64,000 nt of DNA from Anaerocolumna sedimenticola (GTDB lineage: Bacteria; Bacillota; Clostridia; Lachnospirales; Lachnospiraceae), in the NCBI RefSeq assembly GCF_009931695.1, contig NZ_CP048000.1, forward strand, positions 3,613,501-3,677,500, in the 5' to 3' direction. The position numbers and the translations under genes are program-made. Shown in pieces: positions 4,611 through 32,894 of this stretch. Each line of letters starts with the position of its first letter. Position 1 is the first letter of the stretch. A model generated the notes under the pieces. The model was not told the DNA's origin and did not search any database. It was given only the letters and a program-made list of their open reading frames with translations.

Positions 4611-4721
4611 GTGAAAGAAAATATAATAAAAGAAAGGTATGCCACATATTACTTCTTTCACCCTTTTTATTAGTGGCAGTAACACATGTGTGAACAGATG
4701 TGTTATGCAATGGGTATTACT
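4611..4721 (+). ncRNA. Pseudoknot leader element, copy A (before UPF0210)
   Basis: Stem 1 is gtgaaagaa 4611-4619 with ttctttcac 4653-4661. Stem 2 is tgccac 4640-4645, inside the stem-1 loop, with gtggca 4673-4678, giving an H-type pseudoknot. Stem 3 is taacacat 4680-4687 with atgtgtta 4698-4705. The segment tgcaatgggt then leads to the start codon at 4722. The same architecture occurs at 6129, 30142 and 32789 with compensating changes, so this is a repeated structured element. Confidence 0.75.
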
Positions 4722-6086
4722 ATGATAAATATACAAGAAGTTATTGAAACCAATAAAATGATAGAACAGGAAAATCTGGATGTCCGGACGATTACATTAG
4801 GTATAAGCCTATTGGATTGTGCGGATAATAATTTAGATGAAGTAAACCGAAAAATATTTGAAAAAATTACTACCGTTGCAAAAGATTTAGTGGCAACCGG
4901 AAAAGCTATTGAAAGAGAATACGGTATTCCTATTGTAAATAAAAGAATCTCTGTTACTCCTATCTCCTTAGTTGGAGCAGCAGCATGTAAAAGCCCGGAA
5001 GATTATGTTACAATTGCACAGACGCTGGATGACGCTGCCAAGAAAGTAGGCGTTAATTTTATCGGAGGTTACTCCGCTTTAGTATCCAAAGGGATGACAA
5101 CCAGTGATTTGAACTTAATTAAATCCATTCCAAAAGCATTAGCTATTACGGAAAGGGTATGCAGTTCGGTAAATGTGGGGTCTACCAAAACAGGTATTGA
5201 CATGGACGCGGTAAAACTATTAGGTGAGATTATATTAGAGACCGCAGAGCTGACGAAAGAAAGAGATTCCCTGGGATGTGCCAAATTGGTTGTATTCTGT
5301 AATGCTCCGGATGATAACCCGTTTATGGCAGGAGCTTTCCACGGTATTACGGAAGGAGATTCTATTATCAATGTAGGAGTCAGCGGACCAGGAGTTGTAA
5401 AAACAGCTTTACAGAATGTCAGAGGTGCTGATTTTGGAACTTTATGCGAAACTATAAAGACCACTGCATTTAAAATAACCAGAGTCGGACAGTTAGTTGC
5501 CCAGGAAGCCTCCAGAAGACTAAATATACCTTTTGGGATTATAGATTTATCCTTAGCACCTACTCCGGCCGTCGGAGACAGTGTAGCTGAAATTTTCCAG
5601 GAAATCGGTTTGGAGCATGCAGGTGCTCCGGGTACGACTGCTGCGTTGGCACTGTTAAATGACCAGGTGAAAAAGGGCGGCGTTATGGCATCTTCTTATG
5701 TAGGAGGGTTAAGCGGTGCATTTATACCGGTAAGTGAAGATCAGGGTATGATTAATGCGGTACAGGCAGGAGCTCTTACTTTAGAGAAACTGGAAGCAAT
5801 GACTTGCGTATGTTCCGTTGGTCTGGATATGATAGCGATACCGGGAGATACCAAAGCTACAACAATATCCGGAATTATAGCGGATGAGATGGCAATTGGT
5901 ATGGTAAACCAGAAGACAACCGCAGTTCGTCTGATACCGGTTATCGGTAAGAAGGTTGGAGATATGGCCAGCTTTGGAGGTTTATTAGGATATGCTCCCG
6001 TTATGCCGGTAAATTCTTTTAGTTGTGATGCATTTATTAACCGAGGCGGAAGAATACCTGCACCTATTCATAGTTTTAAAAATTAA
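4722..6086 (+). CDS. UPF0210 (PFL-like) family protein
   Basis: A 454-residue protein starting [17 protein letters not shown], the standard N-terminus of the UPF0210/DUF711 family, which is also the usual length. In-frame ATGs further upstream fall inside the structured leader and are rejected. The family is related to pyruvate formate-lyase/glycyl-radical folds by structure, but its reaction is unknown. It is paired with the upstream ACT protein, so amino-acid-responsive function is an inference. A pseudoknot element ends directly at its start codon. Confidence 0.9.
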
Positions 6087-6128
6087 AAATATTAAAGGCG
6101 TTGTTCTTAAGCCATGTAATTTTTATAA

Positions 6129-6252
6129 GTGAAAGAAAATATAGACAGAAAGGATGCCACAAAAGTAATAATTCTTTCACCAGTGAAGCTTAATTCACAT
6201 TCTATGTTGTGGCAGTACCGCAAAAAGACACGCGGTATAAAGGGTTACCATT
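6129..6252 (+). ncRNA. Pseudoknot leader element, copy B (before pepD)
   Basis: Stem 1 is gtgaaagaa 6129-6137 with ttctttcac 6172-6180. Stem 2 is tgccacaa 6155-6162 with ttgtggca 6207-6214. Stem 3 is taccgc 6216-6221 with gcggta 6232-6237. An extra small hairpin (gtgaa/ttcac) sits between the stem-1 and stem-2 partners. The element runs up to the pepD start at 6253. Confidence 0.75.
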
Positions 6253-7703
6253 ATGAATCAACAATTACAAGAATTGGATTATAAGAAGGTATTTCATTTC
6301 TTCAGTGAAATATCAGCTGTTCCAAGAGGGTCAAGAAATAATACTGCAATCAGCAACTATTTAGCAGATTTTGCGAAAAGCCGTGACCTTAAATATGTTC
6401 AGGATGAATATGAAAATGTGGTAATTATAAAGGAAGCTACCCCGGGTTATGAAAATGTACCGGCCATTATTTTACAGGGACACATGGATATGGTTTGTGA
6501 AAAAACCAATGACTGTACACATGATTTCCTGACTCAGGGAATTGAACTATATGTGGATGGAGATTATATTCATGCAGACCGCACTACGTTAGGAGCAGAT
6601 AATGGTATAGCAGTGGCATATGCTTTGGCATTATTAGATGATGCGAGTTTAAAACACCCCAGAATTGAAGCTGTTTTTACCACAGATGAAGAAACCGGTA
6701 TGGATGGTGCAATCGGACTTGATGTTTCTGCACTGCAAGGGAAATATCTGTTAAATATTGATTCAGAGAATGAAGGTTCTTTATGGACCAGTTCAGCAGG
6801 CGGACTAACCAGTACCTGTGATTTGCCTGTTAACCGTATCTCTGATAAAGGAGTAAAAATTAATATAGCTATCAGTGATTTACAAGGCGGGCATTCCGGT
6901 GCAGAGATCCATAAGAACAGAACCAATGCAACCAAACTTATGAGCAGAATGTTGTTTGAGTTAAGAAATTATGTTCATTTTGGACTTATAGATATGATGG
7001 GCGGACTTAAAGATAATGCGATACCCAGAGATGCGGTTGCAAATCTGGTTTTACAACCGGAAGATTTAGAAGAGTTCAATTTAGGATTTGAAGAATTAGC
7101 AAAAAATATAAAAATGAACTAGTTTCCAGCGAACCTAATTTAGAAATTCATATGAGTAATTTAGGAGAGGGAGAGTTTAAATATCTGCATCCCACCTCCT
7201 TTGAAAAAGTATTATTCATGCTGTTGAATACACCGAACGGAGTACAGGTTATGAGTACCGATATTCCTGGATTGGTTGAAAGTTCTGTTAATTTAGGAGT
7301 TTTTCGTGTTGAAGAAGAGAAAGCAATGTTCTGTTTTTCTGTCCGAAGCTCCGTAAACAGCTACAAACAGTATTTATGCGATAAATTAAGTTATATGTCC
7401 CAGTTCCTTGGCGGAGAATTTTATGTGAGGGCACAGTATCCTGCCTGGGAGTATAAAAAAGAATCTCCTTTAAGAGAATACTTAATTAAAGTATTTAAGG
7501 AGCAATATGGTAGGGAACCTGAATTAGAAGCGATTCATGCCGGACTGGAATGCAGCTTTTTCGCAGAAAAAATTCCAGGAGTGGATATTGTGTCTCTGGG
7601 ACCTGATATGTTTGATATTCATACACCAAAAGAACGTCTAAGTATTTCTTCAGCGATTCGTGTTTATCAATACCTGGAGAAAGTAATTGAAGGATTGAAA
7701 TAA
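6253..7703 (+). pseudogene. pepD: Aminoacyl-histidine dipeptidase (PepD, M20), one frameshift
   Basis: Two reading frames together give the ~483 residues normal for PepD, a zinc dipeptidase that splits Xaa-His dipeptides. The first part carries the metal ligands in GHMDMV (H77, D79), GADNG (D116) and TTDEETG (E146/E147). It stops at 7120-7122. The second part continues the homology from EPNLEIHMSNLGEG to 7703. One extra A in the A-runs near 7098-7114 restores a single frame. This is either a sequencing or assembly contraction or a real slippage mutation; an in-phase A-AAA-AAT heptamer lies at the break. A pseudoknot element precedes the gene, and CapA follows two bases later. Confidence 0.85.
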
Positions 7704-7705
7704 TA

Positions 7706-8944
7706 ATGAGTAAAAAGAAGATGTATCGTCTATTGGCTTTTATTTTATTTACATTTGGCTTATTAGCTGTTGTAATAACGATAGAATTCAGCCGATATTC
7801 GAACCGTACAGAAGAACAATCGAATAATGGATTGCAAAGTACCAATGAAACCGTGAATACGGCTGATAAAGAAAATTTTAATGAAACAACAGATTCAGTT
7901 GATACTTCCACAGAGGATGAGAATCTTGACTCTGCCGTTTCTCCTGTACCGGTAGAAAATACGGTTGAGAACGAAAGGAAAGATACAAAAAAACCTTGGA
8001 AAGATATAAATTTGTTATTCAGCGGGGATATTTATTTGTCTGATTATGTTCTAAATCAGTATAAGCAGAATGGGATAGACGGTATACTTTCAAAAGACTT
8101 ACTGGATGAATTTCAGGTAGCTGATATTGCTATGGTAAATCAGGAGTTTGCCTTTACCAACCGGGGAATAAAAGCAGAGAATAAGCAATATACTTTTCGG
8201 GTGGATCCCCAAAATGTTCAGATTTTTAAGGATATGCAGATTGATATTGTTACCTTGGCAAATAATCATACCATGGATTTTGGAATAGAGGGATTAACCG
8301 ATTCTTTTGAAACTTTAAAAAGTGCCGGCATAAAATATGCCGGTGCGGGTAATGATTTATCAGAAGCCAGAAATATAAATTATTTTAATGTAAATGGCAA
8401 AAAGATTGCATATCTGGCTGCTTCCAGAGTTATTCCGGAACCAGGCTGGAATGCATATAAAACTAAGGCTGGTATGTTAACAACTTATGACCCGGCGTTT
8501 CTCCTTGAAGATATTAAAACGGCTAAATCGCAAAGTGATTTTGTTGTTGTTTATGTTCATTGGGGGTTGGAAAAACATGAGTTACCGGAAGAATATCAGC
8601 GTAACCTGGCAAAACAATACATAGATGCGGGGGCTGACTTGGTACTGGGAAGCCATCCCCATGTATTACAGGGGATTGAATATTATAACGGTAAACCAAT
8701 CGTATACAGTTTGGGAAACTTTATATTCTATAATTCCATAAATCAAACAGCCCTGCTTAAGGTAAGTCTGAACGAAAAAAATGAAGCAAAAATTCAATTA
8801 TTACCAGGAAAAGCTGAAAATTCCCGAACTATCGGGTTCGGCAACGATTCGGATAAAGCAGAATTTTATAACTATATGACGAATATTTCTTTCGGAATTC
8901 ATTTTGACGAAGAGGGTAATATCATTCCTCAATCGGAATATTGA
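7706..8944 (+). CDS. CapA-family metallophosphatase-like membrane protein
   Basis: A 412-residue protein with an N-terminal membrane segment (about residues 8-27), a Thr/Glu/Asn-rich linker to about 85, and a PGA_cap (CapA) domain. Visible motifs are LFSGDIYL, LANNHTMDFG, VYVHWGLEKHE and LGSHPHVLQG, matching metal-binding positions of calcineurin-like CapA proteins. The family is linked to poly-gamma-glutamate or other capsule export, but many members are of unknown function. No capB or capC is nearby, so a capsule role is not supported. It starts two bases after pepD and is probably cotranscribed. Confidence 0.88.
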   Translation: MSKKKMYRLLAFILFTFGLLAVVITIEFSRYSNRTEEQSNNGLQSTNETVNTADKENFNETTDSVDTSTEDENLDSAVSPVPVENTVENERKDTKKPWKDINLLFSGDIYLSDYVLNQYKQNGIDGILSKDLLDEFQVADIAMVNQEFAFTNRGIKAENKQYTFRVDPQNVQIFKDMQIDIVTLANNHTMDFGIEGLTDSFETLKSAGIKYAGAGNDLSEARNINYFNVNGKKIAYLAASRVIPEPGWNAYKTKAGMLTTYDPAFLLEDIKTAKSQSDFVVVYVHWGLEKHELPEEYQRNLAKQYIDAGADLVLGSHPHVLQGIEYYNGKPIVYSLGNFIFYNSINQTALLKVSLNEKNEAKIQLLPGKAENSRTIGFGNDSDKAEFYNYMTNISFGIHFDEEGNIIPQSEY

Positions 8945-9002
8945 TAGAAATATGGATAGAATTATTTTTACTCTGATAGATTTTTTTAAAAGTTAGATAA
9001 TC

Positions 9003-9060
9003 GGCTCCCTTATAATTTGAGACTAATAAAGTTAAACTCAAGTTATAAGGGAGCTTTTAT
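9003..9060 (+). terminator. Rho-independent terminator after capA-like gene
   Basis: gctcccttataa (9003-9014) pairs with ttataagggagc (9042-9053), extended by inner pairs, then a T-rich tail. A structured repeat begins immediately after the tail. Confidence 0.85.
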
Positions 9061-9061
9061 T

Positions 9062-9160
9062 TTGGCGAAAGCAAGTGAGAATTACAAGTTGCTTACAATA
9101 ATTCCAACGCGCAGGCGAACCGAAGAAACTCACAAAGCTTGTTTCTTCCGGTTATGTGTT
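9062..9160 (+). repeat. Hairpin repeat of the CAAGCTTGCTTG family
   Basis: About 95 bp, closely similar to 56967-57062. It contains gaattacaagttgcttacaa..aattc, a cgcg-flanked segment, and a terminal stem accgaagaaac/gtttcttccggt. It starts directly after a terminator, as does the 56967 copy. The gap 8945-9379 holds only this, the terminator and the promoter at 9296; a 77-codon open frame across it is not credible. Confidence 0.7.
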
Positions 9161-9295
9161 TTTTTGAATTGCCAGAGAGAGGATTTTGTATTTGCTCCAT
9201 TGAGGATTTTGTATCTGTTAAAACAAGTAAGTATTAGTTGGATAATATAATAAGATACAAAAGATTGAAGAAATTTACATTTATTTAAAAACAAT

Positions 9296-9324
9296 TTTAC
9301 ATTCTGAAGTAACCATGCTATAAT
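9296..9324 (+). promoter_or_regulatory. Sigma-A type promoter for the LCP gene
   Basis: TTTACA 9296-9301, a 17-base spacer, and TATAAT 9319-9324 with an extended TG upstream of the -10. It lies 55 bases before the start codon of the LCP gene. Confidence 0.8.
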
Positions 9325-9379
9325 ATTCCATGCCAGTATTTGGAAATTAAATTGTGAATGAATATGCGGGAGTTATTAT

Positions 9380-10717
9380 ATGAATAAGCAGAAACGAAAT
9401 AATCCAGAAGTGTCTAAGGATTCTACATTTGATAAAGGAAAAGCAGACAATTTTTCCGATGAACAATTTGATTATATGCAGTTTATTGATGAGTTAATAA
9501 CAGAAGAACCTATAGAGAAAGAAATCGTTATTAATAATGATGAAGAGATATTTGATAATTTAAATAAATCATTAAGCAGACAAGTCTTAAGTGAGATGGA
9601 ATTACAAAACGGGCTGAATCAAAACAAAACCAAAAAGGGAAAAACTTCTAAAATCAAATACACGCTTATCGGAGTAGGAACGATTTTAGGCATTTTTGTT
9701 TTTTTATTTTTAACCCCATTAGGCAGAAATTTTTTATGGCAGACAGCGGCAAATTATGCTTATGGTAAAATGAATTATGATGAAGGCTTAAATGTAGTTA
9801 CCCAGGAAGTTGTAGATGACGTAGAAGAAGCTTTGCCAGAATCCCCAGCCCAGCCTACGGAAACTCCGGTGCAATGGGATACCAATACAACGGACGACGG
9901 TGCCAGGATAGAAGAAGGAATAACCAATATCTTGTTATTAGGAGAAGAAGCGATAGATTCCGGCAGCGGTCGCGGACGCACTGACATAATGATGATTGCA
10001 ACTATGAACACCACGGATAAATCCTTTAAATTAACTTCTTTAATGAGAGATATGCTGGTACAGATACCGGGTAATAAAGATAATAAATTAAATACAGCCT
10101 ATGAGATTGGAGGAATCCCTTTACTTTATCAAACCATAGAATTGAATTTTGACATTAAATTAGATGGTTATGTTTTAGTAGGTTTCGATGATTTTGAAAA
10201 TGTCATCAACAAACTTGGCGGGGTTCGAATCACATTAACTGACGAGGAAGCAAATTATTTAAATACAACGAATTATATTTCAAAACCGGAATTCAGGAAT
10301 GTCGTGGGAGGCTCCCAAGTTCTGAATGGAAATCAGGCATTGGGATATTGCAGAGTCCGTTATGTGGCAACAGGGGATGAGCAGATTAATGATTTTGGAA
10401 GAACATCCAGACAGAGAACGGTTTTAAATGCCATCTTTGATCAGTATAAATCTAAAAGTATGCCGGAACTGGTATTATTAATGAATGATATCCTGCCGCT
10501 TATTACTACAGATATCAAACAAGATGATTTTGAGACTTATTTAAGGACAGCGATGTCTTTGGGGGTAACACAAATACAAAATTTAAGACTCCCTGCCGAT
10601 CATACCTTTGATGAGGGTTATGTACGGAAAATGTCCGTTTTAATTCCGGATCTTCAGGAGAATATTGAGATATTACATGAATTCATTTTTGGAAATGATT
10701 ACGCTTTAAAAAAATAA
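9380..10717 (+). CDS. LytR-CpsA-Psr (LCP) family glycopolymer transferase
   Basis: A 445-residue protein with an acidic cytoplasmic N-terminus of ~90 residues and one membrane segment (about 93-114, IGVGTILGIFVFLFL). An extracellular LCP domain follows. LCP hallmarks visible are NILLLGEE, GRGRTDIMMI, TSLMRDMLVQIPG and GNQALGYCRVRY, the last two carrying the conserved arginines that bind the pyrophosphate of the lipid carrier. The family attaches teichoic acid or other anionic polymers to peptidoglycan. It has its own promoter and no glycopolymer synthesis genes nearby. Confidence 0.92.
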   Translation: MNKQKRNNPEVSKDSTFDKGKADNFSDEQFDYMQFIDELITEEPIEKEIVINNDEEIFDNLNKSLSRQVLSEMELQNGLNQNKTKKGKTSKIKYTLIGVGTILGIFVFLFLTPLGRNFLWQTAANYAYGKMNYDEGLNVVTQEVVDDVEEALPESPAQPTETPVQWDTNTTDDGARIEEGITNILLLGEEAIDSGSGRGRTDIMMIATMNTTDKSFKLTSLMRDMLVQIPGNKDNKLNTAYEIGGIPLLYQTIELNFDIKLDGYVLVGFDDFENVINKLGGVRITLTDEEANYLNTTNYISKPEFRNVVGGSQVLNGNQALGYCRVRYVATGDEQINDFGRTSRQRTVLNAIFDQYKSKSMPELVLLMNDILPLITTDIKQDDFETYLRTAMSLGVTQIQNLRLPADHTFDEGYVRKMSVLIPDLQENIEILHEFIFGNDYALKK

Positions 10718-10797
10718 TAACTTTTACAAGCTTACTATTACCTTTGTGAGAGTTTATGAATTAGGTCATATCGCAAGCGGAAATGGGGTTAAATAAA

Positions 10798-11631
10798 ATG
10801 TCTATAGAGAAACAATATTTATCAGATTTTGAAGCAATATTATCACATCGATATGATAATGGAGCTGACTATTGGACTACATCTGACAAACGCCTGATAA
10901 AAGGAGCGCCGTTTTCCACTTTGGAATGTGTGTTTTATTTATTGGAATTAGGTTTGGAACCCACGGAGCCTTTGCTCAAAGAATGTGCTGATTTAATATT
11001 TGGCACATGGAGGGAAGATGGAAGTTTTAAGTTGTATCCGCAAGGCTCTGTTTATCCTTGTCACACCGTTAATGCAACCAATGTGCTTTGCCACATGGGT
11101 TATACTCTTGATACCAGACTTCAAAAAACTTTCCGGCACCTTTTAGATACCCAATATACAGATGGCGGCTGGCGCTGTAATAAGTTCAGTTTTGGAAAAG
11201 GGCCGGAGACTGAATATTCAAACCCATTTCCAACCCTTACTGCCCTGAATGCATTCCGGTTCAGTGATTATCTAAATAAAGAACCAATGCTTGACAGAGC
11301 CGTGGATTTCTTACTTGAACATTGGACAATCCGAAAACCAATCGGCCCATGCCATTATGGAATAGGTACCTTGTTCATGCAGGTCGAATATCCATTTCGT
11401 AACTATAATCTTTTTGTTTATGTCTATGTATTATCCTTTTATAACCGCGCGAAAGAGGATAAGCGTTTTCTTGAAGCTTTGGAAGCTTTGGAATCAAAAA
11501 TGGTGGATGGACAGGTTGTTGTCCAGCGTGTTGTTCCGAAACTGGCTGATTATTCTTTCTGTAAAAAAGGGGAACCAAGTACTTTGGCAACAAAACGTTA
11601 TCACGAGATCTTAAAAAACCGCAGAAAATGA
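10798..11631 (+). CDS. Alpha/alpha-toroid (prenyltransferase/squalene-cyclase-like) protein
   Basis: A 277-residue protein with repeated helix-pair segments of the terpenoid cyclase/prenyltransferase toroid type. The most recognisable is DTQYTDGGWRCNKFSFG, close to the QxxDGGW repeat motif, with similar GTWREDGSFK earlier. There is no DxDD or other cyclase acid motif, so catalysis is doubtful. Clostridial proteins of this type are usually annotated only as prenyltransferase-repeat proteins. ATG 10798 (MSIEKQYL) is chosen because GGGG lies eight bases upstream; ATG 10783 is possible. Confidence 0.7.
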   Translation: MSIEKQYLSDFEAILSHRYDNGADYWTTSDKRLIKGAPFSTLECVFYLLELGLEPTEPLLKECADLIFGTWREDGSFKLYPQGSVYPCHTVNATNVLCHMGYTLDTRLQKTFRHLLDTQYTDGGWRCNKFSFGKGPETEYSNPFPTLTALNAFRFSDYLNKEPMLDRAVDFLLEHWTIRKPIGPCHYGIGTLFMQVEYPFRNYNLFVYVYVLSFYNRAKEDKRFLEALEALESKMVDGQVVVQRVVPKLADYSFCKKGEPSTLATKRYHEILKNRRK

Positions 11632-11714
11632 TAAAACAAAGAGCATTTCTTAGAAGTTTATAAATAGAAATTTATTCTTATGTAATTTACTTCAAAATAT
11701 AGTAGTTTATAATA

Positions 11715-11797
11715 AAAGGGCGATTGCAAAATCTTTAGTTTACTTAACTTGAGCATTTACAAGTTTATACTATAAGAATTTTGTAATTGCCCTTTAT
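11715..11797 (+). terminator. Long inverted repeat in intergenic gap
   Basis: An outer stem of about 19 bp: aaaagggcgattgcaaaatc near 11715 pairs with gaattttgtaattgcccttt near 11777-11795, with a ~40-base loop. It ends in a T-containing tail and probably terminates the upstream gene. It is not a copy of the ~150-bp palindromic family. Confidence 0.5.
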
Positions 11798-11878
11798 GTT
11801 AAAATATGAGTTTTAAGCATATCTTTTTTTGGCAAACATATAATAATAAGGACGTCCAAACTATATCCGGAGATAATT

Positions 11879-12892
11879 ATGTTTTCTAGTAAGAATTTAT
11901 ATAAAAAAAGGAGATTACAGAATCATTATAGAACAAGAAACCAATATATAAACAGAGAGCTTAATCCTTATACTTATAATAGAAGTAACAGGAGTGATAC
12001 TTTCATTATTGGAAGACAACTTCGTTTTTATTTCCTGTTATTTATCATTACCACATTTATCGTGGGAATTACCTTAAACCGGATTGAGTTAAATATTGCA
12101 GTGGAACAGCTAAAGGAAGAAGGAATTGATTACGATTCCTTTCGTGAAATGCTAATACCGTCAAAGATGATAAAAGATATAAAAAGGAAAATGGATAAGG
12201 AATTAGAATCAAATGAAATAAACACAAAAAAGGGATCGCAGACTTATGATACGGCGGATTATATTACTTTAGCCATGCTGTTAAACAGATATAATTTAAA
12301 TAATGCCAGAAATATCGGTAAAAGCAACAGTAATTTTCTTATCAGTAATTTATCTCAAAACAAAAGTTTTATGGAATTAAAAGCTTATTATAAAGCCATA
12401 CTTGGAGATATCAAATGTTTTCCCGTAATTCCTAATTCTGATGGAGAGCTAAATGTTACTTTTATTGATACCTGGAATGCCTATCGAAGTTACGGCGGTA
12501 ACAGAAGGCATGAGGGTACGGATATTATGTCTAAGGAAAATTTAAGAGGGGTATATCCGATTGTCAGTATGACGGACGGAACCGTTGAAAAGATGGGATG
12601 GTTGGAACAGGGCGGCTATCGAATCGGAGTCCGCGGTACATATGGTGCATATTATTATTACGCACACTTGGAGTCGTATGCACCGGATTTAAAAATCGGT
12701 GACAGCATAAATGCAGGAGATTTCTTAGGTTACATGGGAGACAGCGGATACGGGGCAGAAGGAACCGTCGGTGAATTTGATGTACATTTGCATGTGGGAA
12801 TTTATGTTGAGACGGATTTTGGGGAATTAAGTGTAAATCCGTATTCTATTTTACTTTATTTAGAATCAATAAAGGGCAGTAAGGAGAAATAA
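11879..12892 (+). CDS. M23 family membrane-anchored peptidase
   Basis: A 337-residue protein with a basic N-terminus, a membrane segment (about residues 50-68, FYFLLFIITTFIVGI) and a C-terminal peptidase M23 (LytM-type) domain. Zinc motifs are RHEGTDI near residue 210 and HLHVGIY near 302. Such enzymes cut peptide cross-bridges in peptidoglycan. The middle region lacks a clear coiled coil. Similar proteins occur in sporulation (SpoIIQ/SpoIVFA-like) and growth; which applies here cannot be told from sequence. Confidence 0.85.
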   Translation: MFSSKNLYKKRRLQNHYRTRNQYINRELNPYTYNRSNRSDTFIIGRQLRFYFLLFIITTFIVGITLNRIELNIAVEQLKEEGIDYDSFREMLIPSKMIKDIKRKMDKELESNEINTKKGSQTYDTADYITLAMLLNRYNLNNARNIGKSNSNFLISNLSQNKSFMELKAYYKAILGDIKCFPVIPNSDGELNVTFIDTWNAYRSYGGNRRHEGTDIMSKENLRGVYPIVSMTDGTVEKMGWLEQGGYRIGVRGTYGAYYYYAHLESYAPDLKIGDSINAGDFLGYMGDSGYGAEGTVGEFDVHLHVGIYVETDFGELSVNPYSILLYLESIKGSKEK

Positions 12893-12959
12893 GTGGCTGG
12901 GTTTTGCACCAGGAATTGTGTAAATATAAAATATTTTCCACAAACAAATAGGTTTATGA

Positions 12960-13112: not shown

Positions 13113-13157
13113 ATAATAATATGAATTAATTATATGGGGGACAAGGAGTGAGGTTAG

Positions 13158-16303: not shown

Positions 16304-16305
16304 GT

Positions 16306-24239: not shown

Positions 24240-24268
24240 GTAAAATGGAAATATTTTAATATTATGGC

Positions 24269-24297: not shown

Positions 24298-24330
24298 AAG
24301 CTAACGTAAGTATGATACAGTGACGAATGG

Positions 24331-24440: not shown

Positions 24441-24496
24441 TCAGGAATTATGTCCAAAGAGCATAAGCAGGTTGTGAGAAAGGTTTGGTTATTATA

Positions 24497-24964: not shown

Positions 24965-25018
24965 GACTTATTTTTAAGGGATAGAACTAAGAACATTTAT
25001 GAGGAGGATCAGCAGAAA

Positions 25019-26074
25019 ATGAATAACAACAAAGAGTTAATTGATGCATTAAATCAGATTGAAAGGGAAAAAGATATCAGCAAAGAAATATTATTGGAAG
25101 CTATGGAGAATTCCTTAGTAGCAGCCTGCAAAAATCATTTTGGCAAGGCAGATAATATCAGGGTAAATATTAACAGGGAAACCGGTGCGGTTGCTGTTTA
25201 TGCTGAAAGAGAAATCGTTGAAACCGTAGTGGACCCTGTAACACAAATCAATGCCCTGGAAGCAAAATTAAAATATCCAAAAAATAATATCGGTGATATC
25301 GTTAATGTTGAAGTAACTCCTAAAAATTTCGGACGTATTGCCGCCCAGAAAGCAAAACAGGTGGTAGTACAAAAAATCAGGGAAGAAGAAAGAAAAGTTT
25401 TATTTAATCAGTATTACAGTAAGGAAAAAGATGTAGTAACCGGTATTGTACAGCGTTATGTAGGTAATAATGTAAGTATCAATCTTGGTAAAGTAGATGC
25501 TGTTTTAACGGAAAATGAGCAAGTGAGAACAGAACATTTCAAACCTACGGATCGTATTAAGCTATATGTATTAGAAGTAAAAGATACCACAAAAGGTCCC
25601 AGAATCACTGTTTCAAGAACACATCCGGAATTGGTAAAACGGCTGTTTGAGGCAGAAGTAACCGAAGTAAAGGATGGTACTGTGGAAATTAAGAGTATTT
25701 CCAGAGAAGCAGGCTCCAGAACGAAAATGGCAGTATACTCCAATAATCCGGATGTAGATCCTGTTGGGGCTTGTGTTGGTATGAATGGTGCCAGAGTTAA
25801 TGCGATTGTGAATGAATTAAGGGGCGAGAAAATAGACATTATTAATTGGAGCGATGATCCGGTAGTTTTAATTGAGAATGCCTTAAGTCCTGCAAAAGTA
25901 GTATCCGTATATGTAGAAGAGGGCGAGAAAAGTGCCCGCGTTATCGTACCGGATTATCAATTATCCCTTGCTATCGGTAAAGAAGGACAGAATGCCAGAT
26001 TAGCAGCCAGACTTACCGGTTATAAAATAGATATTAAGAGCGAATCGCAAGCAGAAGGGTATGGATGGGAGTAG
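25019..26074 (+). CDS. nusA: Transcription termination/antitermination factor NusA
   Basis: A 351-residue NusA of the short Gram-positive type: N-terminal RNA-polymerase-binding domain to ~125, S1 domain (GIVQRYVGNNVSINLG) around 140-200, then two KH domains, with VGACVGMNGARVNAIVNEL and SLAIGKEGQNARLAARL as the GxxG loops. The acidic repeats found in proteobacteria are absent. The start has GAGGAGG about 12 bases upstream. Second gene of the operon. Confidence 0.96.
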   Translation: MNNNKELIDALNQIEREKDISKEILLEAMENSLVAACKNHFGKADNIRVNINRETGAVAVYAEREIVETVVDPVTQINALEAKLKYPKNNIGDIVNVEVTPKNFGRIAAQKAKQVVVQKIREEERKVLFNQYYSKEKDVVTGIVQRYVGNNVSINLGKVDAVLTENEQVRTEHFKPTDRIKLYVLEVKDTTKGPRITVSRTHPELVKRLFEAEVTEVKDGTVEIKSISREAGSRTKMAVYSNNPDVDPVGACVGMNGARVNAIVNELRGEKIDIINWSDDPVVLIENALSPAKVVSVYVEEGEKSARVIVPDYQLSLAIGKEGQNARLAARLTGYKIDIKSESQAEGYGWE

Positions 26075-26081
26075 GTAATTA

Positions 26082-26357
26082 ATGAGTGTTGCGAAAAAAA
26101 TTCCCCAAAGACAATGTATCGGATGCGGGGAAATGAAAAATAAAAAAGATATGATCAGGGTTATAAAAACACCGGAGGAGAATATCATTATTGACGCTAC
26201 CGGCAAGAAGAACGGAAGAGGAGCATACATATGCAAATCAACAGAATGTCTTCAGAAAGCCGCAAAAAGCCGTGGACTGGAACGTTCCTTAAAGGTGAGT
26301 ATTCCGCGAGAAGTCTATGAAGAATTAGAAAAGGAGCTGAGTGGACTTGAATTATGA
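26082..26357 (+). CDS. ylxR: YlxR family RNA-binding protein (RNase P modulator type)
   Basis: A 91-residue protein with the family start KIPQRQCIGCGEMKNKKDMIR, then GRGAYICKSTECL; four cysteines are placed as in YlxR. In Bacillus the YlxR protein (RnpM) binds RNase P RNA and affects its activity. It begins seven bases after nusA, and its 3' end overlaps ylxQ by 17 bases. Confidence 0.92.
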   Translation: MSVAKKIPQRQCIGCGEMKNKKDMIRVIKTPEENIIIDATGKKNGRGAYICKSTECLQKAAKSRGLERSLKVSIPREVYEELEKELSGLEL

Positions 26358-26727
26358 AAAGGATAATACCGGGCCCAGGCCTATTGCACAAAAAAAAGTA
26401 TTTTCTTATATTGGAATAGCAGCCAAAGCGGGTCATCTTTTAAGCGGCGAATTCATGGCAGAAAAAACCGTTAAGGAAGGCAGGGCTAAATTAGTAATTG
26501 TTGCTGAGGATGCATCAGATAATACGAAAAAAATGTTTACCAATATGTGTACTTACTATAAAGTGCCGATTTACTTTTTTGGTGAAAAAACAAATCTCGG
26601 CCACGCAATAGGAAAAGAATTCAGAGCATCTCTGGTTCTGTTAGACCAAGGCTTGGCTGATGCGGTAGAAAAGCAACTGAACACAATCAACAAGGATGGA
26701 AGTATGGACACATACACCAGGTCGTAA
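26341..26727 (+). CDS. ylxQ: L7Ae-like ribosomal/K-turn protein YlxQ
   Basis: A 128-residue L7Ae/L30e/S12e-fold protein, slightly long because of an N-terminal tail. The core SYIGIAAKAGHLLSGEF and KLVIVAEDASDNTKKMF are characteristic. YlxQ binds kink-turn RNA in related bacteria. Start GTG 26341 follows AAAGGAGCTGA at good spacing and lies inside the end of ylxR, indicating translational coupling. Confidence 0.88.
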   Translation: MDLNYEKDNTGPRPIAQKKVFSYIGIAAKAGHLLSGEFMAEKTVKEGRAKLVIVAEDASDNTKKMFTNMCTYYKVPIYFFGEKTNLGHAIGKEFRASLVLLDQGLADAVEKQLNTINKDGSMDTYTRS

Positions 26728-26745
26728 AAAGTGGAGGTAGTAAGT

Positions 26746-29700
26746 ATGGCAAAAATTAAAATATATGAATTAGCAAAGGAAATAGATAAACACAGTAAAG
26801 ATATTATAACTTTTTTAAATGAAAAAGGTATGGAAGTAAAAAGCCATATGAGCAGTATTGATGATAATACTGTTTCTATGGTTAGGAGTCATTTTGGGTC
26901 TAATGTGAAACCGGCTGAGGCTCAACCGGCAATTAAATCAGACAATGTTTCCAAGGCAGCTCAGGCTCCAACTACACCGGCTTCCAGTACTACAGTTCAT
27001 ACAGCTTCTGTTGCACAACAAAATAACAGACCTGCCGGAAACAGTTATACTGGGCAAAATAACCAAGGAAATACCAGATACAATCAAGGTAATACCGGTG
27101 ATCAAAGAACACCTGGACAATATAATCAAAATCGTCCTTATAATCAAAATGGGCAAGGACAAAACCGCCCTTATAACAGACCACAGGGTGATCAGCAAGG
27201 ACAAAGAACCGCCGGTGACAGTGGTATGAGGAATTCCGGTCAGGGTAATCAGCATTCATCCATGCAAAACCGTAACTATGGTCAGAATAACGGGCAGGGT
27301 CAGAACCGTCCTTATAACCAGAATCAAGGCGGACAGAACCGTCCGTATAATCAGAATGGTCAGGGGCAAAATCGTCCGTATAATCAGGATGGTCAGGGAC
27401 AATACCGTCCTTATAATCAAAATAGTCAGGGACAAAACCGTCCTTATAACCAGGGTGGTTCCTATGGTCAAGGAGGTCAGCAGGGTCAGAACCGCCCGGT
27501 TGGTCAAGGCAGCCAATCCGGTCAGAACCGCCCTTATGGACAGAATAATCAATCTAATGGACAATACCGTCAAAACCGTCCTTATAATCAGGATCAAAGC
27601 CGTCCAATGAATAATGGGCAGGGAAGACCGAATAGCTATAATAATGGAAATGACAGACCAAACCAAGGCGGTCGACCATATAATTCGCAAAATAACAGAC
27701 CGGGTCAAAACAGCGGTTATAATAACTATAACAGATCACAGAGTGGTTCAGAGAATTCCGGCGGTTACCAGAATAGAAACTTTGGTTCCGGCTTCGGCGG
27801 AATGAACAAAGACAAAGATGATTATAATAAAGACGGAGATGTAAGGAAAAGAACTCCTGGCAGATCAGATTCCAGAAGCAGTGATGCGAAGAAATTTGAC
27901 GCTCCGATAGGAATGTCAAGAAGTGATTCTGCCAACAATAGAAACAGCAGAGCCAATAAAAATACAAAAAACACAAAAACCAATTATACTCATAAGGAAA
28001 TTGATAATGACGGCATAGAGGAAATCAAAATACCGAAAAAAGGCCAGTTTATTAAACCAAAGCCTGTACAGATTCAGGAAACGAAAGAAGATGACGTTAA
28101 AACAATTACACTTCCGGATGTATTAACAATTAAAGAATTGGCAGACAAAATGAAATTGCCTGCATCTGCATTGGTAAAGAAGCTTTTCTTAGCAGGTAAA
28201 ATGGTATCCATTAACCAGGAGATATCATTCGAAGAAGCGGAAGAAATCGCAATTGAATTTGATATCATTGCAGAGCATGAAGTTAAAGTGGACGTAATCG
28301 AAGAATTACTTAAGGAAAAGGAAGAAGACGAAGAAAATTTAGTAAAACGCCCTCCTGTAGTTTGTGTTATGGGTCATGTCGATCACGGTAAAACATCTCT
28401 TTTGGATGCCATTCGTGAAACTAACGTAACCTCTCATGAAGCAGGCGGAATAACCCAGCATATCGGCGCTTATGTAGTTGAAGTTAATGGGGAAAAAATT
28501 ACATTTTTAGATACACCGGGTCATGAAGCATTTACTTCCATGAGAATGAGAGGAGCACAGTCTACGGATATTGCAATTTTAGTTGTCGCTGCCGACGACG
28601 GTGTTATGCCTCAGACCGTAGAAGCTATCAGCCATGCGAAAGCTGCCGGTATTCAGATAATCGTAGCAATCAATAAAATAGATAAACCAAGTGCAAATAT
28701 CGAACGTGTGAAACAGGAATTAACAGAATATGAACTGGTTGCGGAAGACTGGGGCGGTGATACGGTATTTGTTCCGGTTTCAGCCCACACTAAGGAAGGG
28801 ATTGATCAATTATTGGAAATGATCATACTTACAGCCGAAATGGTTGAATTAAAAGCCAATCCTAACCGTAATGCCAGAGGTATTGTTATCGAAGCGGAAC
28901 TAGACAAAGGCCGCGGTCCGGTTGCTACCATTCTTGTACAAAAGGGTACATTACATGTGGGTGATGCGATTGCCATCGGCTCCTCTTACGGTAAAGTAAG
29001 AGCAATGATGGATGATAAAGGAAGACGTGTAAAAGAAGCAACTCCATCCACTCCAGTGGAAATATTAGGTTTAAATGAAGTGCCTGATGCAGGTGAAATC
29101 TTTATTGCAACCGATAATGAAAAAGAAGCACGTTCCATTTCAGAAACTTATATATCACAGGGAAGGGAACGACTCTTAGCAGATACCAAAGCAAAATTAT
29201 CTTTAGACGGCTTATTCTCACAAATTAAAGCCGGTAACGTTAAAGAACTTAACCTGATTATTAAGGCCGATGTTCAGGGTTCTGTGGAAGCGGTTAAACA
29301 AAGTCTGGTTAAACTTAGTAATGAAGAAGTAGCGGTACGTATTATCCACGGTGGTGTAGGTACTATTAATGAATCTGACGTTTCACTGGCAAGTACCTCC
29401 AACGCGATTATTATTGGCTTTAATGTTCGTCCGGACAATACGGCTAAGGAGCTTGCAGACCGTGAAAAGGTAGATTTAAGACTTTATCGTGTAATTTATA
29501 ATGCGATTGAAGATGTGGAAGCAGCCATGAAAGGTATGCTTGATCCTACTTATGAGGAAAAAGTCATCGGTCATGCGGAAGTTAGGCAGGTATTTAAAGC
29601 TTCCGGCCTTGGAACTATTGCAGGTTCCTATGTACTAGACGGTAAAATTACGAGAGGTTGTTCCGCTAGAATAACAAGAGAGGGCGAACTCATATTTGAA

Positions 29701-29847
29701 GGTGCCCTGGCTTCCTTAAAGAGATTTAAAGATGACGTAAAAGAAGTGGCAGCAGGATATGAATGCGGTCTTGTATTTGAAAAATTTAATGACATTAAAG
29801 AATTTGATACCGTAGAATTGTATATTATGCAGGAAGTTCCCAGATAA
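26746..29847 (+). CDS. infB: Translation initiation factor IF-2 with long N/Q/G-rich linker
   Basis: A 1033-residue IF-2, longer than Bacillus IF-2 (~716). An IF2_N module opens the protein ([20 protein letters not shown]). Residues ~90-350 are an unusual linker built from repeats like [11 protein letters not shown], almost free of hydrophobic residues. A second IF2_N module lies near 460, then the G domain: GHVDHGKT at 543-550, DTPGHEAF near 588, NKID near 643. Domains II-IV follow and are full length. The factor delivers initiator tRNA to the 30S subunit. Start ATG 26746 follows GGAGG; the GTG at 26731 is rejected. Confidence 0.96.
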
Positions 29848-29896
29848 TAAGAACATGTGGAATCATTGTACCAATTTATAGTAAGTTAAAATATAT

Positions 29897-29937
29897 GCGC
29901 CATAAAAACGGACTGTTACTCAGTTCCGTTATGGCGC
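29897..29937 (+). terminator. Strong hairpin after infB
   Basis: gcgccata (29897-29904) pairs with tatggcgc (29930-29937), and acgga/tccgt pairs inside. No clear T-run follows, so it may be an mRNA-stabilising or partial termination structure. Confidence 0.45.
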
Positions 29938-29981
29938 TGCTATATTAATTGAGGCGGTTTTCTTGCGGTATGCAACGAAAT

Positions 29982-30032
29982 CCTCGGCCCAAACATGAGG
30001 CGCGTTGGAAATAACATGGCGGTTAGTGTGAA
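29982..30032 (+). repeat. 51-bp perfect repeat, copy 1
   Basis: From cctcggccc to gtgtgaa this 51-base stretch is identical to 38302-38352. It holds a small hairpin (cctc/gagg). Upstream, at about 29952-29973, ggcggttttcttgcggtatgc resembles the stem-3 end of the pseudoknot elements, suggesting a composite or decayed element. Together with the pseudoknot copy that follows, this accounts for most of the 402-base infB-rbfA gap. Confidence 0.85.
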
Positions 30033-30141
30033 GAAAAAGCATCTTCATTGAAAAGAATCTGGAAATAAGTACAGACGGGGCTTATTACCAGCTTCTTACC
30101 CATAATTTAGGATGCCGCAGGAGTGGCATCGGACGGGAAGG

Positions 30142-30249
30142 TTGAAAGAAAATATAGAAAGTGAAAGGATGCCACAAGATGGATTCTTTCAACCTGTTTA
30201 TTTTGAGGCAGTACCGCAAACCATTTTGCGGTATGCAATAGGTGTAAAA
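30142..30249 (+). ncRNA. Pseudoknot leader element, copy C (before rbfA)
   Basis: Stem 1 is ttgaaagaa 30142-30150 with ttctttcaa 30184-30192: the first pair changed from G-C to T-A relative to copies A, B and D, a compensating change. Stem 2 is tgccac 30170-30175 with gaggca 30205-30210 (one mismatch). Stem 3 is taccgcaaa 30212-30220 with tttgcggta 30225-30233. tgcaataggtg leads into the rbfA start at 30250. Confidence 0.75.
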
Positions 30250-30732
30250 ATGAGAAAAAACAGTATTAAAAATACAAGAATTAACGGAGAAGTTCAGCGG
30301 GAATTAAGTCAGCTTATCAGCAGAGAAATTAAAGATCCAAGGATCAATCCAATGACCTCAGTCGTTGCCGTTGAGGTAGCTCCGGATTTAAAACATGCTA
30401 AAGTTTATATCAGTGTTCTGGGTGATGAAGAATCACAGAAAAACACTTTGGCCGGTTTAAGAAGTGCAGCTCCTTATATGAGAGGGCAATTAGCCAGAAG
30501 TATCAATCTGCGTAACACACCGGAGCTTACCTTTATTTTGGATCAATCCATAGAATATGGTGTCAATATGTCCAGGTTAATTCATGAGGTAAATAAAGAT
30601 TTAGAGAATGAACAAACTGAGGATTCTTCTTTGGAAGAGGAAGATGATGGTTATGACTCTGAGGATAATTCGGAAGATGATGTAGAAGACGATATGAAAG
30701 TAATAAATGAAACAAAATTAGATCAAGAGTAA
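30250..30732 (+). CDS. rbfA: Ribosome-binding factor A with acidic tail
   Basis: A 160-residue protein. Residues 1-~115 are a standard RbfA KH-like domain (NTRINGEVQRELSQLISREIKD, VSVLGDEESQKNT-like strand, LTFILDQSIEYGVNMSRL). RbfA helps mature the 5' end of 16S rRNA. The last ~40 residues are very acidic (SLEEEDDGYDSEDNSEDD), longer than in most homologues. ATG 30250 is chosen: codons further upstream lie within the pseudoknot element. Confidence 0.93.
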   Translation: MRKNSIKNTRINGEVQRELSQLISREIKDPRINPMTSVVAVEVAPDLKHAKVYISVLGDEESQKNTLAGLRSAAPYMRGQLARSINLRNTPELTFILDQSIEYGVNMSRLIHEVNKDLENEQTEDSSLEEEDDGYDSEDNSEDDVEDDMKVINETKLDQE

Positions 30733-30864
30733 ATAATTTAAAATGGATAATGAAAAGTAGCCCGGAATGGTACAAACATGGTGGGATGCCTGTTAAAGCA
30801 GCATTAGTTTGAATAATCAAACGATATATTGCTTTACTGGCATTGTTTGTGTATGGAGGTTAGT

Positions 30865-31848
30865 ATGAAAAATGTATTAGATGAATTAAGAAATGCCAGA
30901 ACCATAGGAATTGCCGGTCACGTCAGACCAGACGGCGATTGCGTGGGGTCCTGTCTGGCATTATATCATTATTTGAAGAAAAATCTATCCGGGGATCCGG
31001 TTATCGATTTATATCTGGAGACAATACCGGAAAAATTTAAAATCATTGGAGATACCGAAGTAATTAAGCAGGAGAATATGGATAGTATTATTTATGATGC
31101 TTTTATATCATTAGACAGCAGCAGTTTAGACCGCTTAGGATTTGCTCAGGTTTATTTTGAACAAGCAAATAAAACCATAAATATAGATCATCATATCAGC
31201 AATTTGAAATTTGCGAACGCTAATCATGTGGAAGAAAAAGCAAGCTCAACCTGCGAAGTGCTTTTTGGTTTATTTGAAGAAGAAAAAATAGATATTACAA
31301 TAGCAAAAGCGTTATATCTCGGGATCATTCATGATACCGGAGTATTTAAGCATTCCAATACTTCGGAAAAAACCATGAATATAGCCGGAAAACTTATTTC
31401 CATAGGTGTTCCGTTTTCCCAGATGATTGATGAAACTTTTTATATTAAAAACTATCATCAGAACCAGATTTTAGGTAGATGTCTGTTAGAAAGCATGTTA
31501 ATTCTTGACGGTAAGTGTATTGTATCATCCGTTAGTAAAAAAATGCTGGAGTTTTATGATTCAACCTCTGCGGATTTGGATGGTATCATAGACCAACTCA
31601 GGATTACGAAAGGTGTGGAGGTAGCCATACTTCTTTATGAAACGGATTTTCATGAGTATAAGGTGAGTATGCGCGCTAACGGAGATGTTGATGTCAGAAA
31701 GATTGCGTCTTATTTTGGCGGAGGCGGACATATTAAGGCAGCCGGCTGTACGATGCACGGTACCATTCATGATGTAGTAAATAATCTGACCGGACATATA
31801 GAACACCAATTAGCGAATTTAACAAGTGAACAGGAGTCAGAATATTGA
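30865..31848 (+). CDS. nrnA: NrnA-type DHH nanoRNase / pAp phosphatase
   Basis: A 327-residue DHH-DHHA1 phosphoesterase. Motifs are GHVRPDGDCVGSC near residue 18, SLDSSSLDRLG, the DHH motif NIDHHISNL, HDTGVFKHSNT, and the DHHA1 motif YFGGGGHIKAAGC near the end. It degrades 2-5 nucleotide RNA and 3'-phosphoadenosine 5'-phosphate. ATG 30865 has a GGAGG site; the longer frame from 30829 is rejected. It ends four bases inside truB. Confidence 0.92.
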   Translation: MKNVLDELRNARTIGIAGHVRPDGDCVGSCLALYHYLKKNLSGDPVIDLYLETIPEKFKIIGDTEVIKQENMDSIIYDAFISLDSSSLDRLGFAQVYFEQANKTINIDHHISNLKFANANHVEEKASSTCEVLFGLFEEEKIDITIAKALYLGIIHDTGVFKHSNTSEKTMNIAGKLISIGVPFSQMIDETFYIKNYHQNQILGRCLLESMLILDGKCIVSSVSKKMLEFYDSTSADLDGIIDQLRITKGVEVAILLYETDFHEYKVSMRANGDVDVRKIASYFGGGGHIKAAGCTMHGTIHDVVNNLTGHIEHQLANLTSEQESEY

Positions 31849-32768
31849 TTAACGGAATCATCAATGTATATAAAGAAAAAGGATTTACTTCCCATGATGT
31901 TGTTGCTAAATTAAGAGGCATTATAAAGCAGAAAAAAATCGGTCATACCGGTACCCTGGATCCTGATGCGGAAGGGGTACTGCCTGTTTGCCTTGGAAAT
32001 GCAACAAAATTATGTGATATACTGACAGATAAGGATAAGATCTATGAAGCGGTTCTGTCACTTGGATTAACTACGGATACGCAGGACATAACCGGTACTG
32101 TAATAAGTACTTATGAAGTTACTGCAGACAGAGAGCAGATTGAGAAGGCTATTTTTAGTTTTATCGGAGATTACAATCAATTACCGCCCATGTATTCTGC
32201 CATAAAAGTAGGCGGAAAACGCTTGTATGAACTGGCCAGGGCGGGTAAGGAGATTGAAAGGGAGCCTAGAAAAGTAAGGATACATAATATCCGGATTCTT
32301 GAATTTAATGAAGAAAAGCATGAAATAAGAATGTCGGTGGAATGTTCAAAGGGTACTTATATCAGAACCTTATGTCATGATATCGGTGCCAGTTTAGGGT
32401 GCGGCGGTTGTATGAAAAGTTTGTTAAGAACTAAAGCAGGAGCCTTTACCTTGGAAAACAGTTTAAAATTGTCGGAAGTTCAAGCGGCTTTCATGCAGGA
32501 ACGTTTACAGGATTTTATTATAAAAGCGGATGATATGTTCCCTGATTACCCCAAAATTATTGTAGCAGAGGAATATACGAAATTAATATATAATGGCAAC
32601 AGTTTTCATATCGATCAGTTAAAAAAAGAAGCCGTTCCATGGTATAATAGTAATGTTAATGAAAATAACGGATTTGTACGGGTTTATGACTGGCAGAATC
32701 AATTTATCGGGATATATGAATATGTGTTAAAAGATAAAATTTATAAACCGGTAAAAATGTTTTTATAG
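31845..32768 (+). CDS. truB: tRNA pseudouridine-55 synthase
   Basis: A 307-residue TruB. Conserved: GIINVYKEKGFTSHDVV, GHTGTLDPDAEGVLPVCLG with the catalytic Asp, YSAIKVGGKRLYELARAG and CSKGTYIRTLCHDIG. It makes pseudouridine 55 in the T-loop of tRNAs. TTG start at 31845 overlaps nrnA by four bases (coupled). The C-terminal PUA-type domain is present. Confidence 0.95.
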   Translation: MINGIINVYKEKGFTSHDVVAKLRGIIKQKKIGHTGTLDPDAEGVLPVCLGNATKLCDILTDKDKIYEAVLSLGLTTDTQDITGTVISTYEVTADREQIEKAIFSFIGDYNQLPPMYSAIKVGGKRLYELARAGKEIEREPRKVRIHNIRILEFNEEKHEIRMSVECSKGTYIRTLCHDIGASLGCGGCMKSLLRTKAGAFTLENSLKLSEVQAAFMQERLQDFIIKADDMFPDYPKIIVAEEYTKLIYNGNSFHIDQLKKEAVPWYNSNVNENNGFVRVYDWQNQFIGIYEYVLKDKIYKPVKMFL

Positions 32769-32788
32769 ACATTAATAGGAGCATATAA

Positions 32789-32894
32789 GTGAAAGAAAAT
32801 TTAGTAAAAGAAAGATGCCACATGTAGATTCTTTCACTTTTTCTTATTTGTGGCACTATCGCAGGCATCCTGCGATATGCAATGGGTGGAAAAT
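32789..32894 (+). ncRNA. Pseudoknot leader element, copy D (before ribF)
   Basis: Stem 1 is gtgaaagaa 32789-32797 with ttctttcac 32829-32837. Stem 2 is tgccaca 32816-32822 with tgtggca 32849-32855. Stem 3 is tatcgcagg 32857-32865 with cctgcgata 32869-32877, a different sequence from A-C but fully paired. tgcaatgggtggaaaat precedes the ribF start at 32895. Confidence 0.78.

Follow-up and report, generated by a model that had tools for sequence, protein, structure and literature searches.

What would place the same short sequence directly before the start codons of four unrelated genes? The question is raised by a 64,000-nucleotide (nt) stretch of the Anaerocolumna sedimenticola genome (NZ_CP048000.1, positions 3,613,501 to 3,677,500 of the forward strand; hereafter the window), in which an earlier note, made from the letters alone, described four copies of a repeated leader ending at ATG codons. 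Our results make it probable that this leader is a start-site-targeted mobile element of about 105-110 base pairs (bp), folding as a pseudoknotted RNA that carries a ribosome-binding site (RBS). It consists of a helix P1, a helix P2 that crosses P1 to form an H-type pseudoknot, and a hairpin P3. The four copies and their parts are listed below in window coordinates, with gene names as given in the earlier note and bit scores from R1, a model built from 11 copies with the start codon included.

4606..4721, + strand: copy A, abutting ATG 4722 of the UPF0210 gene; 104.5 bits
4611-4619/4653-4661, 4640-4645/4673-4678 and 4680-4687/4698-4705, + strand: P1 core, P2 and P3 of copy A
4631..4637, + strand: loop L1 of copy A (AGAAAGG), complementary to the 3′ tail of 16S ribosomal RNA; candidate 5′ half of a split Shine-Dalgarno (SD) sequence
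6124..6252, + strand: copy B, abutting ATG 6253 of a pepD-like gene; 79.7 bits
6129-6137/6172-6180, 6155-6162/6207-6214 and 6216-6221/6232-6237, + strand: P1 core, P2 and P3 of copy B
6183-6198 and 6147-6154, + strand: additional hairpin within loop L3 of copy B, and its AGAAAGGA
30023..30136 (approximate bounds), + strand: additional 5′ domain before copy C, from ttagtgtgaagaaaaagcatcttc through the hairpin gatgccgcaggagtggcatc; it resembles stretches preceding some other copies
30137..30249, + strand: copy C, abutting ATG 30250 of rbfA; 119.6 bits
30139-30150/30184-30195, 30170-30176/30204-30210 (one mismatch) and 30212-30220/30225-30233, + strand: P1, P2 and P3 of copy C
32777..32781, + strand: remnant AGGAG of the native ribF SD, about 113 nt from the ATG, matching the AGGAG of empty sites in genomes G010 and G006
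32784..32894, + strand: copy D, abutting ATG 32895 of ribF; 114.9 bits
32787-32797/32829-32839, 32816-32822/32849-32855 and 32857-32865/32869-32877, + strand: P1, P2 and P3 of copy D
32809-32814 and 32878-32894, + strand: L1 of copy D (AGAAAG, one G fewer than the usual AGAAAGG) and its tail UGCAAUGGGUGGAAAAU

The four copies do lie where they had been placed, each abutting its ATG, and all have the strand order 1-2-1′-2′ of an H-type pseudoknot and the third hairpin described for them. The replacement of G-C by U-A reported for stem 1 in copy C is confirmed (alignment columns 8/62: GC in 8, UA in 2 and other in 1 of 11 rows); copy A has a mismatch in the outer part of P1. The tail tgcaatgggt, said to be shared by all, is exact in A and D, whereas C has tgcaataggt and B tataaagggt. 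Single-sequence folding restricted to nested pairs gave z-scores of -1.2, -2.5, -4.9 and -3.6 for A to D; as 22 of 200 shuffles of copy A fold equally well or better, folding energy alone is insufficient to prove that copy. Because R1 contains the ATG, a second model, R2, was built without the start-codon end, from 43 copies cut at the end of P3 (its alignment, A3, used 43 of 60 listed references). R2 recovers each of the four copies in the window with an E of 1e-6 or lower; A, C and D were among its training rows and B was not. Loci L001 and L007, which have large inserts, were omitted from the first alignments, and L002 and L009 were also omitted from the 11-row alignment A1.

Both the number and the position of the copies hold far beyond the window. 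The exact core GATGCCACAN{3,30}ATTCTTTCA, a pattern without a start codon, has 14 matches in the 5,500,435-bp genome of A. sedimenticola (G000) and 0 in the reversed control; together with the R1 and R2 matches, this excludes chance. With R1 there were at least 126 matches at E≤1 among the best 150 candidates scored, the weakest of which may be chance, and 111 at E≤0.01 over 100 fetched sources, which makes 110 distinct matches once a duplicate row is removed. These 110 do not count L034 (full-length, 95.6 bits) and L185-L195 (11 weak matches, 24.9-31 bits), and they do include an antisense artefact overlapping another copy (L007:1416-1529:-) as well as the weak L179 and L180, which may be chance. 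The modelled start codon opens an open reading frame (ORF) of at least 60 amino acids (aa) at offset 0 in 93 of the 110 (92 ATG, 1 TTG). R2 found 103 matches at E≤0.001 in the complete genome of a second species (G008), and among the best 70 of them an ATG ORF of at least 50 aa starts 3-18 nt past P3 in 65, 20 of which start 3-4 nt past P3 and take the AUG of UGCAAUGGG; 3 have an ATG ORF only further off and 2 have none. Random positions in the same loci gave 228/4000 for 3-18 nt and 402/4000 for 0-30 nt. Every match located at a start codon, in G000 as in G008, is in the sense direction. The position directly before start codons, described from four genes, is in this way genome-wide in both species, and the covariance-model search of this genome and other Lachnospiraceae that the earlier note had proposed yielded the 110 distinct matches and carriers in other genera. 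By N-terminal reading, without family search, the genes behind the element include rbfA, ribF, leuD, pyrH, nusB, cysS, pheS, mnmE, miaA, nrdR, ispG, ispF, galE, flhA and many transporters, and pyrH, cysS and pheS look essential. The sequence UGCAAUGGGUGUAAAAAUG (window 32878-32897), present in many copies, contains an upstream AUG whose frame agrees with that of the gene in some of them (MGVKM...) and not in others; gene callers may pick either start.

As judged from the alignments, P1, P3 and the pseudoknot helix P2 all show compensatory changes. Over the 110 distinct rows, 90.6% of P1+P2+P3 cells are paired, compared with 39.6-48.1% when partners are slid by 1-3 columns, and changes are found on both sides in 25 of 29 pairs. 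Cells with two-sided changes number 401, against 144.6 ± 13.7 in shuffles, none of 500 reaching 401, and the covariation score is 0.342 against 0.140 (0/500); these pairing and covariation controls ignore the relatedness of the rows. The rows were aligned with a model containing P1 and P3 but not the crossing P2, so that the count leans to P1 and P3 and not to P2. Taken alone in G000, P2 has 17 two-sided cells against 5.3 ± 2.2 expected (0/500 shuffles), and across genera it is rewritten on both sides, as UGCCACA/UGUGGCA, CUGCCAUAU/AUAUGGCAG, AAUUGCCCA/UGGGCAGUU and UACCACAA/UUGUGGUA. In 26 elements the P2 pairing score averages 16.23 when each strand is scored with its own partner; exchanging partners lowers it to 14.00 ± 0.50, the highest of 300 swaps being 15.50, in a control that likewise ignores relatedness. 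Covariation, named beforehand as a check on the fold, was found both in the two-sided cells and in this rewriting.

Comparison of genomes indicates that the element is mobile and recently active. A 110-nt copy used as query in Anaerocolumna sp. AGMB13025 (G010) gives 53 matches, of which 5 show no difference along their whole length and 11 reach ≥97% identity. In 8 of these 11 young copies (L205 in, L201 out for the flank count) element identity has a mean of 0.984 and a minimum of 0.954, and the 100-nt flanks have a mean identity of 0.29 on each side, with a maximum of 0.46. Near-identical elements in unrelated flanks imply movement of the element itself, without a larger segment around it; dispersed near-identical copies of this kind are also the mark of miniature inverted-repeat transposable elements (MITEs). 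Tandem arrays of 2-5 copies, with a period of mostly 105-108 bp, occur at seven places in G010. Of the best 70 G008 matches, 66 gave a protein, and for only 2 of these 66 is there a homologue that also bears the element among 103 G000 genes (identity at least 45%, length at least 50 aa, E≤1e-10, with the first 150 aa compared); gene sets so nearly disjoint between two species speak against a regulon. Copies at nrdR, UPF0210, pepD and ribF are common to G000 and MB42-C2, so old insertions can be inherited.

Filled and empty versions of the same site reveal where the element goes. At ribF, the filled site of G000 reads ...TTTTTATAGACATTAATAGGAGCATATAAG(element)AAAAT-ATG, and empty sites read ...TTTTTATAATAATAGGAGTAATTCGT-ATG in G010 and ...TTTTTGTAAATATTAGTAGGAGTAAAAAAT-ATG in G006. 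This site is empty in 7 of 15 genus members (G010, G006, G001, G008, G004, G005 and G003) and filled in 5 (G000, G007, G011, G012 and G014); the other 3 are ambiguous (G009 with apparent remnants, G002 and G013 with other sequence). RibF identity is 92-100% and 61-63% for filled members and 73-82% for empty ones, which puts filled sites on both sides of empty ones and implies at least two insertions, or losses. The HPr gene is filled after GAGGAGATT in G010 and has an empty SD-spacer-ATG in G007 and G000. Junctions of young copies run from the native SD and about 2-5 nt through the element (AAGGTTG...GTGTAA) and 2-3 nt to the ATG. On these comparisons, the insertion site is the spacer between the SD and the start codon. 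Complementarity to the anti-SD in the 14 nt 5′ of the element has a mean of -9.94 kcal/mol in young G010 copies, with 8/8 at -5 or better (8 of 11 copies; L202, L204 and L205, which follow another element or remnant, are excluded). The same measure has a mean of -4.73 (40%) for the G008 top 30 and -3.65 (31%) for the 110 G000 copies, and control windows further upstream reach 7-15% in G000 and 10-17% in G008. The native SD thus appears to be lost after insertion, and its decay in older copies points to a takeover by the signal that the element brings.

What could this signal be? In G000 the 16S gene terminates in GGATCACCTCCTTTCTAAGG, within which the position of the mature 16S end is our assumption. 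The strongest 16S-tail complement in the first 48 nt of the element is AGAAAGGAU, in L1, unpaired and just 5′ of P2. Sliding 9-mer complementarity peaks over L1 at a mean of -8.3 kcal/mol (53 copies of 105-125 nt), and GAAAGG is exact in 70 of the 87 G000 copies longer than 92 nt, or 79 of 87 if the listed purine changes are allowed. The 3′ tail has a GGNG-type motif in 84 of 93 copies, ending 4-6 nt before the AUG in 76. AGAAAGG and GGGUG together make up an extended SD that P2 and P3 divide into halves, and, as in a split RBS of the T4 gene 25 type, structure separates an SD-like sequence from the AUG, the AGAAAGGA of L1 lying 5′ of P2/P3 and the AUG 3′. Short forms of the element, which lack L1 and P2, carry a fuller SD after P3 (CAGGAGGUGUAAAAAUG and similar). 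The downstream SD in other genera has a median of -6.9 kcal/mol in 31 short forms versus -4.6 in 26 long ones (p 5e-6, with several rows per genome that are not phylogenetically independent), and G000 points in the same direction (-8.6 in 3 short versus -6.3 kcal/mol in 90 long). A split SD is, we infer, the most likely way in which the fold would recruit the 30S subunit; alternatively, GGGUG may be a plain RBS and L1 a standby site.

The genomes themselves document dispersal, recent spread, target position, empty sites, compensatory changes and the gradient of native SD decay; the model that we favour adds to them a predicted role in translation initiation, which we infer. The element would insert in the spacer between a gene's SD and its start codon, be cotranscribed with the gene and fold into P1, the H-type pseudoknot with P2 crossing P1, and the hairpin P3, ending about 5 nt before the AUG in the SD-like GGGUG. 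With an RBS of its own, it would keep the gene translatable, and the displaced native SD would then decay. The fold itself would recruit the 30S subunit: the 16S tail would pair through UCCUUUCU with the unpaired AGAAAGGA of L1 and through its CACC half with the 3′ GGGUG, P2 and P3 holding the two SD halves together. The proposal of the earlier note, that a dispersed element with a pseudoknot provides genes with a structured region for translation initiation, draws support from copy number, start-codon position, covariation, empty sites and near-disjoint gene sets, its part in translation being the predicted one. Mobility, the SD-ATG spacer as target, a short pseudoknot-less form elsewhere and the 16S-tail complement in the loop go beyond it. 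A bolder version, which we consider unlikely, is that the element finds start sites at the RNA level and not as DNA, by means of the 16S tail or of the 30S initiation complex, and copies itself there, the pseudoknot splitting an SD whose halves the ribosome rejoins. If so, every insertion would be both a parasite and a working RBS.

Several observations weigh against the favoured model. Control windows of the 8 young copies are also SD-like in 4, 2, 2 and 1 of 8 (50, 25, 25 and 12%; the sample is small). No target-site duplication is evident in the filled and empty pairs at ribF and HPr, between species too divergent to reveal one of 1-3 nt. Of the 110 matches, 17 are off a start codon (6 with an ORF ≤20 nt away, 6 further and 5 without ORF), and the in-frame AUG within UGCAAUGGG makes the true start codon of some copies uncertain. 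Exact GAAAGG is missing from 17 of the 87 long copies, window copy D being among the variants. For P2, neither the number of covarying pairs (134/500 shuffles as high) nor the pair types (333/500) exceed shuffles, and 5 of 26 other-genus elements (L282, L284, L288, L406 and L416) have no convincing P2, which in L282 was probably missed because L3 exceeds the sequence window used. Lastly, two candidate movers are missing from carriers: Y1_Tnp (PF01797) is absent in G000 and G010 and was detected in 5 of 14 control genomes, and RVT_1 is absent in G000 and G009, both carriers, and present in 4 of 6 genomes tested. A MITE-like DNA repeat would account for part of this picture: a host transposase preferring AGGAGG-like DNA would move it, the RNA fold would be a by-product, and only the GGGUG tail would matter for translation. 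Dispersal, a length of about 108 bp, tandem arrays and hairpins near both ends fit such a repeat, and the pneumococcal BOX, RUP and SPRITE repeats are of that sort in the accessible part of PMC3049150. However, the ends (AAGGTTG...GTGTAA) are not inverted terminal repeats, no target duplication was found between the divergent species compared, compensatory changes fall in three helices, including the crossing P2 between genera, the unpaired AGAAAGGA is conserved and start-codon matches are all sense, so that we regard the MITE-like repeat as possible and yet doubtful.

Regulatory readings fare worse. That the element is a riboswitch, or another cis-regulator of a regulon sensing one signal, could be argued from the pseudoknot adjoining the RBS and from an alternative pairing of L3 with the GGGUG tail in the minimum free energy (MFE) folds of some copies. 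This SD-sequestering fold shows no covariation (0.612 paired versus 0.604 shuffled), and neither does the P3 extension (GCA/UGC) that MFE folds suggest (61/102 versus 62.2). The genes share no common pathway by N-terminal reading, only 2 of 66 overlap between G008 and G000, and the copy number is about a hundred; the earlier argument from unrelated downstream genes against an ordinary riboswitch is borne out, and we hold such a regulator to be very unlikely. Conserved unpaired stretches in L1 and L3 would suit an element to which a global RNA-binding protein or small RNA binds and which the bacterium has spread over many genes, but L1 conservation is explained by the 16S tail and gene sets turn over between species, which makes this highly improbable. 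Removal from messenger RNA in the manner of an intron, restoring the native SD-spacer-AUG, would explain the position inside the SD-ATG spacer. It is hardly credible given the tandem copies and the decay of the native SD in older copies, unexpected if it were restored; moreover, about 110 nt is, to our knowledge, below the size of known self-splicing introns.

For the favoured mobile element, the search for a mover covered Y1 transposase and reverse transcriptase among enzyme families. A Y1 transposase (IS200/IS605-derived, of the REP/PATE type) was rejected as mover, with none in the two genomes G000 and G010, and so was a reverse transcriptase (of a group II intron or other retroelement), absent from G000; these two classes do not explain every carrier, unless the enzymes have since disappeared or operate from another place. 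The element ends AAGGTTG and GTGTAA are not inverted repeats, and no comparison with the ends of resident insertion sequences (IS) was made. Phage or plasmid carriage was likewise rejected: there was no match in viral_contigs with one exact pattern, nor in plasmids or phages by blastn with one consensus.

We know of no mobile element that has the SD-ATG spacer as its target and an RBS as its body, and no description of this one was found in the literature searched, mainly open-licence with full texts partly covered. By that literature and our recall it is a new kind of mobile element, each half of which has relatives, namely dispersed structured repeats and split RBSs. Small mobile repeats have mostly been described between genes; this element lies in the few bases of a bacterial gene that are under the tightest constraint, about a hundred times in both genomes that were searched deeply, and leaves most of the genes open. 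As a naturally occurring RBS cassette that spreads by itself, it would make it possible to test how the 30S subunit deals with a structured or split SD, and it would add a new way in which translation signals turn over in evolution. Finished genomes and named Anaerocolumna strains make both movement and initiation mechanism directly testable.

The closest relatives on the translation side, and a precedent for an SD-AUG gap closed by structure, are T4 genes 25 and 38, in which RNA structure between SD and AUG shortens an overlong spacing, as proposed for the element, an arrangement quoted for gene 25 as a split RBS-SD (PMC3014915). Unlike the element, these are two phage genes with spacings of 22 and 27 nt and an SD that is not in two halves, and the accessible part of that source describes neither mobility nor a pseudoknot. 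On the side of mobility, BOX, RUP and SPRITE are also small structured repeats, dispersed in many copies; they are probably parasitic and can be transcribed along with genes. BOX and RUP, however, bear terminal inverted repeats that resemble those of named IS elements, and no SD-ATG spacer location or RBS is described in the part available (PMC3049150). Correia elements are MITEs found predominantly immediately upstream of genes, but they supply promoters, and no RNA fold abutting the start codon is described in the portion consulted (PMC10969869). The BRE repeats of Bordetella and relatives resemble the element in size (about 90 bp), in tandem arrays of varying number and in mobility features, and differ from it in being mostly intergenic, with some within genes; a start-codon position is not described in the accessible text (PMC3110155). 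Rickettsia palindromic elements, as far as the same portion of PMC10969869 goes, are small repeats that also spread without breaking translation, yet they do so by in-frame insertion within ORFs and not before the start codon.

How widely is the element distributed? All 15 genus genomes have it, with at least 3 to at least 60 matches each among the best 60 candidates scored, and the same scan found it in 1 of 22 genomes of other genera in the family and in 0 of 24 genomes of other families in the order. A larger sample of the family gave matches at E≤1e-5 in 18 of 348 genomes and 16 of 333 genera (best 10 candidates scored in each), and there is one exact pattern match in Robinsoniella peoriensis. 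Several other genera have the short form, about 85 nt without L1 and P2 and hence no pseudoknot, mostly before a start codon (L281, L286, L287, L289, L292, L294-L296, L383-L402 and L417-L419; L294 is tandem), and genome G188 has both short and long forms. Against known families, Rfam 15 gave 0 matches in the window at gathering threshold, and permissive scans of 8 + 10 other loci show none on the element, in line with the earlier note, which did not recognise it as a named RNA family. Two sub-threshold Rfam hits lie elsewhere: RAGATH-35 at L002 1236-1327 (+), with 34.1 bits for a cut-off of 38.9, on the strand opposite to the element and inside a gene, and SNORD18 in L001, about 1.1 kb from the element.

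Longer and rearranged forms were also seen. The additional 5′ domain between native flank and P1, found at window 30023-30136 and before ribF at L261, L270, L272 and L273, may be a longer form of the element. It has hairpins such as GAGNNC-AGAGG-GNNCUC and GAUGCCG..CGGCAUC; five such patterns are each present in the 110 nt before the element for 4-10 of 110 copies, against 0 of 110 for a control window. Tandem units of P1 only, with a period of about 53 nt and each with GAAAGGATGCC or similar, precede a single P2′-P3 half at L114 3337-3437 and at L079, L078 and L105 in G010. Several copies carry an insert in L3, either a second hairpin (ACAATAGAATGC...GCATTCTATTGT and similar) or GTGAAA..TTTCAC (L007, L036, L124, L127 and L135 in G000; L070 and L101). 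At L001 1326-1553 (-), before what reads as a deoB-like gene, about 110 nt of unrelated sequence lies between P1′ and P2′.

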